Part shown: piece after piece, positions 35,638 through 63,986 of the stretch
How the letters are laid out: each line of letters starts with the position of its first letter
Numbering within the stretch: position 1 is the first letter of the stretch
NCBI GenBank assembly: GCA_026413225.1
Contig: CM048560.1
Location: forward strand, 13,534,001-13,598,000
DNA: 64,000 nt
Direction of reading: 5' to 3'
From: Otis tarda
Taxonomy: Eukaryota; Chordata; Aves; Otidiformes; Otididae
Notes under the pieces: generated by a model
The model's input: the letters and a program-made list of their open reading frames with translations, nothing else
Databases searched by the model: none
What the model was told of the DNA's origin: nothing
Made by a program: the position numbers and the translations under genes

Positions 35638-44471
<8,834 letters not shown>

Positions 44472-60765: not shown

Positions 60766-60864
60766 TCATATAGACCATTTTGATGTAGCAGCAGAGAGAG
60801 CAAAAGCACTCAAAACACTGAACAACAGCAGGAATCCGGGAGAGGAGTGTTTCCCAGCAGAGCT
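60766..60864 (-). other. Terminal exon with hydrophobic C-terminus
   Basis: A long pyrimidine tract (CTCTTTTTTTTTCACAG) precedes 33 codons ending in TGA. The order is small polar residues, a His/Ser/Pro spacer, a 16-residue hydrophobic stretch and a short tail. Confidence 0.55.
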
Positions 60865-63800
60865 CTGTGAAAAAAAAAGAGAGCAACATGATAAACCCAA
60901 TTCAAAATGGTTCTATTTATTACTATTATACAAACACAGAAAGTTTCAAAGAAATCTTTTCCTATTAGCCCATTCCATTACGTAGACATTTCCGATGTTA
61001 AAAAATCATGCGCCACATCTAAAGTACATGATGTTCAGTTTTCAAGAGAAAGGCAGTATCAAAAGTATAAAGCACTTATGTGGTTCCAGTTTTCCTAATT
61101 TTTGTTGACACTATTCCTATTTATTATGTTGCACTTGTATTCTCAAACCTTTATTCAGATACAGGAAATCTGACAGATATCTCACCGTATAAACAGTACT
61201 TTCAGTTTTCTACAATATGTATAGGAAGAAACCAGTACAAACAACCACTTGACTTACCACTTGACTGCCGCCTGAGGAAGGTGAATTCTGAAAACAAACA
61301 AACAAATAAATCTAGAAGTGTTCCCACCCAGTGGTTTGGAACACAGTTTTGCCTGTGATCAATAAAATTTTAATAGCTTAACCCACAGCATGGTTTTAAC
61401 TTGTTGAAGAGGAAGGTAGCTTTGCATAGATAAAGTAATTAGTTTTAGTTACACACTATCTCATCTTACATCTGAAAATTTCAGCTAAAATTGATAAAAG
61501 GGCAAAAATATATTTTTCTTACATTCCATTATCATATTCCATACAGAGTTTTTCATCCCCATAGTTGAAAGCAGACACTAAAATTGATGAGTACTGGGGG
61601 TGGAGGGGAAGGCAAGTGCAAAACCAGGTAACTTGACAGTGAAAAACTCAACAATCTAGCTTATTAAAAAAAAAAAAAAAAAGTGAAGGATTAACTGAGC
61701 AGAGCCTATAAAAATCTACAAATAACAGAAATTTTGAAATAGAGGACAGCAAAATAAAACAAGACCTCTAACTGGAATGTGAAGAAAGACAGATTCAGAT
61801 TTAAATGTAACTGATACTGAAATAGCTTTCCCAGGCTGAGGCTGTATTTTCCACAGGAGTTTCTTTAAATATGCTCTAATACAAATGGAACTAATACAGA
61901 ATGTTCTCTTCCCAAAGTCATCCCAAACTTGCTCTATCAACCACCCAGGTTCTTTGTTTACTAAGAAAAGAAGATTAAAATGCTATGATGAAATTATTCT
62001 TACCGGTTTCCCAGAATAAGTGCTTCCTGAGCTAGAGAAACCCTGTAAAATAATTATAAACCATTTATTTTTTGTTCTATGAGACACCTAGTGAATCGTG
62101 TCCAAAGAGCACACAGCAGTCTTGAAAATGCCCTAGGTATTAGTAGTTTTGATACTGACTTTGATTTATCTTTTTCCTTCTACTTTTTTCCCCTACTTTA
62201 ATTGAATGGTCTCAAGTAAACACAACAGTCCTCTCTATTCCATGAATAAAGTTTCAGAGGATTTTCAAAGCAATATCATTGACTGAACTACAAAGTTTGC
62301 AACTGAAAGAGTTATTCTGGTATTTAAATACATCATTCTTAATAGAGTGATCCAAGCATGTTCCCTATGAGTAAGTAACAGAATACAGCAACACTTTCCA
62401 ATGAATACTGCCGCATCCTGAAGTTCAAGTTTGAACAAAATGGTAGAATCATAGAATAGTTTGGGTTGAAAGGGACCTTTAGAAGTCATCTAGTCCAACC
62501 TCCCTGCAATGAGCAGGGACAAAAATATTCCAATTTTTACTGGTCAGTTTTCTCAGATATTTACCATTGTAACATAATTTTAAATTTCACCCTCATTGTT
62601 ACCTATTTTAAAATACCAATATACATATTTCTAGCTTGGTTGTGGAATACTGAAAGAAGAATATCCTTACTGGCTTTCCTTGATGACTGCCTCCTGAGAA
62701 AGACGAACCCTGAAAAAAGATACTCGTTTTCGACTCTAAGCCTATTTGTATTTAGTATATTCTTGCTGTCTAGAATAAAGGACCACAGGAGAACAAACAC
62801 TGTTTTGTGTCCAGTCATCCAAAAATCCCAGGGAAAAGCTTATTTGAAATACAAATATTTAATATATTTCTGTTACAAGTATTCTTTTGAATGGTGCATT
62901 AGTCAGAGAATTTAATTCAAAGTTTTCAAGAAGAAGGAGCTGTTTGGTAGTTCTGATGTGTTTAATACACAGAAAGGAAAAAAATAATAAGGTCCAATTA
63001 AACATTAATTCACCTGCAATCAATCTACAGTTAGATTTTGGGGGAGTAGAGGTAAGCGTTAAGAGTCCTTTACACCACTACTTGAAGAAAGCTCCTATAA
63101 GGAAGGTAACTGAACATAAAAGAGGATACTGAAAAATTAGAAGTTCTGCAAGAGTCTTACTCAGTTTTCTGGCAAAGTTGCTCTGCTTATTTGGATATCA
63201 TTGCCAACAGGAAATCTTACAAGCCTTGACTCTTTAAGAAATGCCATCAAATATACTAAACAAAATGCCTCAGCTTTATGATTCATGTATAAGAAAATGT
63301 AACATTTGTGCCCACTTTTTAATAACAGGTGGATACACTTTATTTTCTATAAGAGATAAGCTAAAACATTGGGTGTGTTCATTTATATCTCCTGTGATTA
63401 ATGACAACAAGAGAAAGGTCTAAATTACATAGTAAAAAAAAGTGGTCTGAAACAGAAGATGAAAATATGCACAGTCAAATGTCAATTATTATTTCCTTCA
63501 AAAAGAAAAAGAAAATATTTTCTTCAAAGCAAGCCAGAAATACTTAAGATAAATGCATATAAAACCAATGAAAAAAAGTGAGCCCTGAGCATAAAGTATA
63601 TTATTACTATTAATTTAAACAGAACTAACTGTTTAGAAGTAACTGTTCAGAAGTCTCTTATAAAAAAATAAAGATCCTGTAATCTAATTCTATGATTACT
63701 AGAACTAATCCAGATATTGACTAGAAGTTCAGTTACAGAGCAAAATGCTGGCTCAAAACTATGGAACTGTGTGAAAATAAATACTGTATTTGCATTTGTT

Positions 63801-63986
63801 GAGATTATAGCAGGTAAGTAAATCATGTGACACACTTTGCATATGTAAGTAATTCTCAGAAAAATGTCTAGCCCATAACTAACTGGATATAATTTTTAAC
63901 AGGCTTATAAGAAAAAAGAAAAGTAAACTTGAAATTTTTTTACTTACTGGTTTACCGTGTTGTCTGCCTCCAGAAGAATATGGGCC
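60766..63986 (-). CDS. Unrecognised gene: micro-exon-encoded Gly/Ser repeat protein with GPI-signal-like C-terminus (3' part)
   Basis: Five minus-strand exons with canonical splice sites: 63986-63948, 62709-62671 and 62042-62004 (39 nt each), 61287-61258 (30 nt) and a terminal exon 60864-60766 ending in TGA. All introns are phase 0. The three 39-nt exons each code one 13-residue repeat of the form G-x-x-x-S-G-[GS]-x-x-x-G-K-P. The 30-nt exon codes a shortened unit. The last exon begins SSAGKHSSPG, followed by the hydrophobic FLLLFSVLSAFALSAA and a short TSKWSI end, as expected for a GPI-anchor signal (small residues, spacer, hydrophobic tail). The 5' part, including any signal peptide, lies beyond the window's right edge. 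It sits upstream of SLC35A3 in the same orientation, where mammals have only the distance to AGL. I do not recognise a homologue. Alternatives are a single-pass membrane protein, or a gene now decaying. Confidence 0.6.
61258..61287 (-). other. Micro-exon, shortened repeat unit 4 (NSPSSGGSQV)
   Basis: Acceptor GTTTTCAG, 30 nt, donor GTAAGTC. Codes NSPSSGGSQV. It lacks the three residues that close the other units. Confidence 0.6.
62004..62042 (-). other. Micro-exon, repeat unit 3 (GFSSSGSTYSGKP)
   Basis: Acceptor ATTTTACAG, 39 nt, donor GTAAGAA. Codes GFSSSGSTYSGKP in phase 0. Confidence 0.65.
62445..62521 (-). mobile_element. CR1 LINE 3'-terminal fragment
   Basis: Plus strand shows TAGAATCATAGAATAGTTTG, GGACCTTTAGAAGTCATCTA and GTCCAACCTCCCTGCAATGA, the antisense of a CR1 3' end. 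It lies in an intron of the micro-exon gene. Confidence 0.88.
62671..62709 (-). other. Micro-exon, repeat unit 2 (GSSFSGGSHQGKP)
   Basis: Acceptor TCTTTTTTCAG, 39 nt, donor GTAAGG. Codes GSSFSGGSHQGKP in phase 0. Confidence 0.65.
63948..63986 (-). other. Micro-exon, repeat unit 1 seen (GPYSSGGRQHGKP)
   Basis: Acceptor ATCTTACAG, 39 nt, donor GTAAGTAA. Codes GPYSSGGRQHGKP in phase 0. Confidence 0.65.

Follow-up and report, generated by a model that had tools for sequence, protein, structure and literature searches.

In this work, we identified in the bird Otis tarda a gene between AGL and SLC35A3 that is probably a sauropsid paralogue of FRRS1, encoding an extracellular Reeler head, a presumably tunable stalk assembled from micro-exons, and a predicted membrane anchor. 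The analyzed stretch of DNA (the window) comprises 64,000 nucleotides, C9:13534001-13598000 of the species' own assembly (1.198 Gb, 116 contigs); positions are counted from its first letter, and extended positions continue the same count rightwards (C9 position minus 13534000). A sequence-only reading of the window had described five exons on the minus strand, from 63986 down to 60766, as an undescribed repeat gene with a tail resembling a glycosylphosphatidylinositol (GPI) signal. These exons are the 3' end of a gene of ~51 kb from start to stop codon (C9:13594766-13646308, minus strand), which leaves the window toward AGL. The window contains 4 of the 69 micro-exons and the terminal exon, and beyond its edge small phase-0 exons run on for another 44 kb. 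The sequence was examined rightward up to AGL, whose GDE_C domain ends at C9:13678574 on the minus strand. The resulting model has 74 coding exons and a conceptual protein of 1081 aa. The Reeler domain, the kinship with FRRS1, and the size of the array all lie outside the window and so could not figure in the sequence-only reading.

That reading had proposed more units and a signal peptide to the right, and both are present. The signal-peptide exon lies at extended 112308-112113 and is joined in frame to three further exons (110727-110591, 110277-110186, and 109121-109013, all on the minus strand), the four together encoding the signal peptide and a complete Reeler domain. The Pfam Reeler profile (PF02014) is matched with 102.7 bits against a cut-off of 21 (E 2.9e-29) over profile positions 1-131 of 131, and the domain has the Reeler fold. 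The profile also matches F-spondin structures in PDB, to which the identity is 20-22%, although a single-sequence phmmer search with the Reeler part alone missed F-spondin there. In the whole 1081-aa model, Reeler is the only Pfam domain at E up to 0.1, with no DOMON, cytochrome b561, or S100/EF-hand domain, and the duck protein P0065 likewise contains only Reeler in the Pfam scan. NCBIfam, a library for prokaryotes, gave no match in P0065 and P0098. Upstream of the model, a possible coding exon, MPTHHHSVDK (extended 115105-115076, C9:13649105-13649076), is followed by gtgtgtag; it resembles MPTHQHLVDK, which precedes the signal peptide in several bird models, and is a candidate translation start.

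The gene structure points to the origin of the head. FRRS1, named here by position following the chicken gene list, lies on the other side of AGL (C9:13731336-13733146) on the plus strand, opposite to the Reeler-stalk gene. The two Reeler domains share 37.9% identity (50/132), compared with 22/66 for a fragment on C4, and three intron places are common to both genes together with their phases: phase 1 after ..IE/G, phase 0 before NSAV, and phase 2 after QF. The C4 Reeler gene has no intron at the second place. The own genome contains at least seven Reeler matches, two in this gene, three in FRRS1, one on C4 (L021, C4:14859792-14860037), and one on C6 (L022, C6:3562329-3562466). By these sequence comparisons, the Reeler exons share common descent with those of FRRS1, a kinship that does not extend to membership among ferric-chelate reductases. 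Most simply, the gene would be an inverted FRRS1-type duplicate in which the reductase part was lost or never present and the array was gained. Some database entries bear the name of FRRS1, and this identification is rejected because FRRS1 lies separately and the present protein has no further domain. The segment 60766-61300 has a single DNA match in the own genome, and this, with the Reeler tally as a lower bound, suggests that the anchor exon is single copy.

The stalk is encoded by 69 micro-exons of 18-45 nt, all in phase 0 and all with lengths that are multiples of 3 (29 of 39 nt, 16 of 42, eight of 36, seven of 30, four of 45, two of 33, and one each of 27, 21, and 18 nt). Their borders are AG-GT in 68 cases, with a GC donor in one (extended 66850-66812), and the introns between them range from 69 to 2361 nt, with a median of 456 nt. 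Of these micro-exons, 53 were recognized by their splice sites and composition, ahead of any comparison with related proteins. The other 16 were added after bird proteins had been compared; 11 + 2 of these were already contained in earlier splice scans, and the remaining three (88658, 75551, and 66850) were first spotted through words from the bird proteins. When candidates were counted with one fixed set of criteria (an open phase-0 frame rich in Gly/Ser, a pyrimidine tract, and a good donor), the 48 kb between 60 and 108 kb yielded 51 on the minus strand and 3 on the plus strand. The same scan gave 0-5 in each of 20 dinucleotide shuffles and 1-2 per strand in the flanking 58 kb and 45 kb.

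The 871 residues of the stalk consist of 26.9% Ser, 24.0% Gly, 11.0% Gln, 8.0% Tyr, 5.2% Pro, and 2.4% Thr. Most units are 10-15 residues long, Gly is the first residue in 45/69 and Gln the last in 50/69, and some units are individual short blocks rather than repeats (for example DTSHVLSRRDYDVQ, VVVVANSNPFPPV, and GGCICPDGSTGNIQ), several of them with Cys. The 66th micro-exon (63948..63986, 39 nt, GPYSSGGRQHGKP) is preceded by 65 others at extended 64412-108366 (C9:13598412-13642366), and followed, on the same minus strand and equally in phase 0, by two further 39-nt units (62671..62709, GSSFSGGSHQGKP; 62004..62042, GFSSSGSTYSGKP) and the last stalk unit (61258..61287, 30 nt, NSPSSGGSQV). The terminal coding exon (60766..60864, 99 nt including the stop, SSAGKHSSPGFLLLFSVLSAFALSAATSKWSI) has a hydrophobic, GPI-signal-like end. 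On re-examination, all five exons show AG acceptors, GT donors where they are spliced onward, translations as had been described, and a stop codon closing the last. The similarity among the three 39-nt units holds as well, with 27, 20, and 26 of 39 bases identical in the pairwise comparisons. For comparison, 20,000 pairs of 39-mers drawn at random from this strand share 10.2 bases on average and 24 at most, so that two of the unit pairs exceed every random pair and the third (20/39) falls below the random maximum.

Conservation was assessed for 70 units (the micro-exons and the terminal exon), with a match defined as identity of at least 60%, in five birds: duck, crow, cuckoo, ostrich, and swan (the 841-aa isoform). 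Matches were found for 62 units in duck, 62 in crow, 57 in cuckoo, 51 in ostrich, and 46 in swan, with uncertain assignments among near-identical units. At least one of these birds has a counterpart of 68 of the 69 micro-exons, among them 52 of the 53 that had been called blind and every one of the 16 later additions. These matches are real, since stalks with shuffled residues match far fewer: in 20 shuffles, 8-17 of 69 units were matched overall and 0-9 in any single bird. Within the window, identities in the five birds are at least 69% for the 66th micro-exon, 77-92% and 69-92% for the two following units, 80-100% for the last stalk unit, and 84-91% for the terminal exon. The hydrophobic C-terminal exon that the sequence-only reading singled out is thus conserved, and the Reeler part is 77-86% identical in the same birds.

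Growth of the array through exon duplication, also proposed from the window, is borne out by copies of whole blocks, introns included (all positions extended): 94079-95106 versus 96321-97363 (97.0%), 80255-81116 versus 81341-82205 (98.5%), and 68840-69390 versus 74923-75473 (96.6%). Further copies are 92-94%, 86-90%, and ~74-76% identical, and the duplicated regions, among them 94079-97823 and 80255-82205, comprise one to several micro-exons per block. Growth by block duplication therefore looks recent and repeated, with an assembly effect possible in some blocks. The expected variability of repeat number is likewise found, among species and among isoforms. Complete-looking bird models with the conserved tail have 841-1145 aa, and when the longest isoform of the crow Corvus kubaryi is compared with the other 27, the differences are blocks made up of entire units (10, 13, 26 residues, and the like). 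Mismatches occur in addition in seven of these 27 alignments (P0073, P0076 with a single one, P0078, P0079, P0081, P0087, and P0092), mostly where the aligner set similar units opposite each other. The C-terminal exon is kept in all 28 isoforms.

Only two regions of the protein contain 15-residue stretches above 1.7 on the Kyte-Doolittle scale, residues 4-23 and 1057-1076, and the maximum between them is 0.81. The protein thus combines a signal peptide, a C-terminal hydrophobic stretch after small residues, and no other membrane span, the configuration of GPI-type proteins, and 35 of the 44 full-length relatives, 28 of them Corvus kubaryi isoforms, end in SKWSI or SKWSV. Searches with just the C-terminal 81 aa yielded neither a Pfam family nor a homolog at E up to 10, and nothing of use in the PDB (a single match at E 6); a low-complexity query this short is blind in such searches. 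Judged from these features, the C-terminus in birds is likely a GPI-attachment signal.

With the Reeler part as query, 63 proteins were found at E up to 1. The closest is from the kori bustard, Ardeotis kori (Otididae), with 97% identity over all 178 residues, and the next reach at most 89%; over the matched part, the other named bird sequences are 75-89% identical, a turtle sequence 60%, and snake sequences 50-52%. At E up to 0.001 there are 44 relatives of full-length size, and a single crow, C. kubaryi, accounts for 28 of them with its isoforms; the duck and Corvus cornix entries represent clusters of 80 and 79 sequences, respectively. The named relatives in both searches are all sauropsid, ten Reeler-part matches being nameless; given the limited reach of such word-based searches, this is weak evidence of absence in mammals. 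The locus and these relatives support the earlier suggestion that a bird or sauropsid protein, secreted or at the cell surface, is encoded between AGL and SLC35A3. In chicken, an unnamed Ensembl gene, ENSGALG00000046652, is placed between SLC35A3 and AGL in a table of PMC11222857, and by its position we infer that it is the orthologue; among the papers listed in our literature search, only two carry this identifier.

The claim that the gene is undescribed stands in one respect: among the matches listed in our literature search, no paper describing it was found. In another respect it does not stand, since models exist in many birds under misleading names, in addition to the unnamed chicken gene. 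Among the Reeler-part matches are entries called 'FRRS1 reductase, partial', 'putative defense protein 3', 'RELD1', and 'hornerin-like'. The full-length relatives are filaggrin-2-like in swan, hornerin-like in crows, cuckoo, and crocodile, loricrin-like in sparrow and finch, spidroin-2-like in ostrich, and uncharacterized in duck and others. The gene is already in the databases, where its names reflect either its composition or its Reeler domain. The many bird models that carry hornerin-, filaggrin-, loricrin-, or spidroin-like names, or that of FRRS1 reductase, would all represent a single misnamed Reeler gene, a point of consequence for comparative work on skin and iron biology.

We propose that the Reeler head is displayed on the cell surface at the tip of a flexible, possibly self-associating Ser/Gly/Gln/Tyr stalk, which in birds would be tethered to the membrane through the predicted GPI signal. 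By analogy with F-spondin and insect Reeler proteins, the head would be a binding module for matrix or a microbial surface. Because all stalk exons are symmetric and in phase 0, the gain, loss, or skipping of any one of them would leave head and anchor intact. The length and make-up of the stalk would be tunable for this reason, over evolution by the duplication of blocks and in an individual bird by alternative splicing.

Several observations weigh against this proposal. The tail closes in the polar TSKWSI, which is unusual for a GPI signal, and the tail is not reached by the models from sparrow (P0095), finch (P0099), and potoo (P0101), which seem to be truncated or to run into introns. Four of the six squamate models, from Vipera, Crotalus, Python, and Eublepharis (P0047, P0056, P0105, P0106), stop at ...RC and have no tail, and those of Laticauda and Ahaetulla end earlier. 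The ...RC stop corresponds roughly to the block SSGCANKK of birds, about midway along their protein. Anchoring may thus not be general; the anchor and the stalk's second half may have arisen after the gene itself, as an archosaur or bird addition, or else the squamate models may be short. Outside birds, 12 of the 70 units are matched in crocodile, 5 in gecko, and 3 in python, a level slightly above that of shuffled stalks against single birds for crocodile and within it for the other two, and kinship there is based on the Reeler part and a few blocks; the crocodile model, moreover, has a different end. Within the array, none of the five birds has a match for the unit at extended 75443-75405, which duplicates 69360-69322 exactly. 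The isoforms are gene models taken from databases, and the roles of head and stalk are assigned by analogy.

The chief alternative is a secreted structural or matrix protein, similar to silk, elastin, or cornified-envelope proteins, with a non-GPI end and with cross-links that would involve the Gln-rich units and the few Lys-containing (GKP) units close to the C-terminus. The prevalence of Ser, Gly, Gln, and Tyr agrees with it, as do the names hornerin-like, loricrin-like, and spidroin-2-like and the tailless squamate models. However, in the five birds the tail is conserved at least as well as the Reeler part, and the protein contains no S100/EF-hand or other known structural domain, so that we regard this alternative as unlikely. 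The sequence-only reading had itself suggested a mucin-like protein, and a coat in which the stalk bears O-glycans or glycosaminoglycans would be compatible with its Ser content, its 38 Ser-Gly pairs, and the eight N-glycosylation sequons in the whole protein. Nevertheless, Thr and Pro are scarce in the stalk, an acidic residue shortly precedes only 3 of the Ser-Gly pairs, and tandem repeats rich in Pro/Thr/Ser, the hallmark of mucins, are missing; this reading is rejected on composition, and a mucin- or proteoglycan-like coat is very unlikely.

The downstream neighbor raises another possibility. SLC35A3 and MFSD14A, placed by their protein sequences, lie on the minus strand of the window, with coding matches from 44429 down to 35641 and from 27076 down to 12919, respectively. 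The first coding exon of SLC35A3 (44369..44447, first part only) opens with an acceptor followed by EENSQE in frame with the start codon, in phase 0, such that the last stalk unit (61287-61258) and this exon (44447-44429) are compatible for in-frame splicing and the frame of the fusion is open in Otis tarda. In the duck protein P0107, annotated as UDP-N-acetylglucosamine transporter isoform X18, a partial Reeler is followed by the stalk, NSPSSGGSQV (the counterpart of the last stalk unit here, which acts as the splice donor), and EKNNQEMSTNLKYLS of SLC35A3, and Pfam finds both Reeler and Nuc_sug_transp in it; P0103 and P0104 carry the two domains as well. The array might then consist mainly of upstream exons of SLC35A3, with the Reeler-stalk-transporter fusion as the main product and the exon at 60766 as a minor end. 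Yet just 3 of the 44 full-length matches are fused, compared with 35 that carry the conserved tail, and SLC35A3 has a G+C-rich region of its own, attributed to it at 58-60 kb. We consider this arrangement very unlikely and provisionally take the fusion as read-through splicing or merging of models between head-to-tail neighbors. PMC12616123, in the part accessible, names SLC35A3 as a transporter and does not concern this locus.

The last alternative is that the frames arose by chance, that the gene has decayed, or that its RNA is not translated. In its favor one could cite the unit unmatched in five birds, the single GC donor, and the fact that the gene is known here from genomic sequence. Against it, frame, units, and splice borders are conserved across birds and all 69 lengths are multiples of 3. 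Chance frames are rejected by the candidate scan compared with its shuffles and by the bird matches compared with shuffled stalks, leaving this class of explanation a next to negligible probability. In the intron 62671-62042, a stretch at window ~62500-62440 ending in ATTCTATGATTCTA resembles the tail of a CR1 retrotransposon, and Rfam at gathering thresholds gave no match within the window.

Returning to the Reeler-stalk protein with its predicted anchor, a run of 69 consecutive micro-exons of 18-45 nt exceeds that of any vertebrate gene known to us, and we know of no other vertebrate gene with this architecture and exon design. Low-complexity stalks of Ser, Gly, Gln, and Tyr are better known from silks and RNA-binding proteins. 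If the proposal is true, the gene could serve as a model for the splicing of dozens of tiny exons in a row, for the growth of repeat proteins by duplication of exon blocks, and for what isoform choice does at the cell surface. A bolder and decidedly unlikely version is that of a combinatorial splice gene, in which independent choice among ~69 interchangeable units, the membrane anchor being sometimes swapped for the Golgi nucleotide-sugar transporter SLC35A3, would give each bird a large, tissue-varying set of surface isoforms. The choice itself, and not length alone, would then carry information in adhesion or recognition, as in Dscam or the micro-exon genes (MEGs) of schistosomes. ENSGALG00000046652 is listed in Table 1 of PMC6826700 as raised in early wooden breast muscle, with a log2 fold change (log2FC) of 1.55 with Galgal5 and no significance with GRCg6a; data that already exist may thus suffice to examine its expression.

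Among known systems, FRRS1 shares with this gene a Reeler domain whose three introns agree in place and phase. It differs in carrying DOMON and cytochrome b561 domains, which are absent here, and in lacking the micro-exon stalk and tail exon. F-spondin (SPON1) is similar in its Reeler domain at the 20-22% identity given above, and contains other domains that this protein lacks. Hornerin, filaggrin, loricrin, and spidroin are alike only in their Gly/Ser-rich composition: proteins of this type are encoded by one large repeat exon, and hornerin and filaggrin have an N-terminal S100/EF-hand domain, whereas here there is no such domain and there are 74 coding exons. Elastin and the PEVK region of titin are also low-complexity proteins built from many in-phase, alternatively spliced exons, although their exons are longer and the proteins are different. 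Insect Reeler proteins (Hdd11, noduler) begin, as here, with a signal peptide and a Reeler domain; as described in PMC3616906, their genes are immune-responsive and mediate nodulation, and the proteins consist of little else, with no stalk or anchor, unlike the protein described here. A result on Hdd11 in salmon (PMC7177938) concerns a fish protein. The closest parallel in design is provided by the schistosome MEGs, which, according to PMC8293314, encode secreted or surface proteins through rows of symmetric micro-exons that can be skipped with the frame unchanged, and are described as restricted to schistosomes, with exons of at most 36 bp. The exons are alike in being symmetric, as are 69/69 here, but only 20/69 are 36 nt or shorter; the bustard gene works like the schistosome MEGs but is not a member of them.

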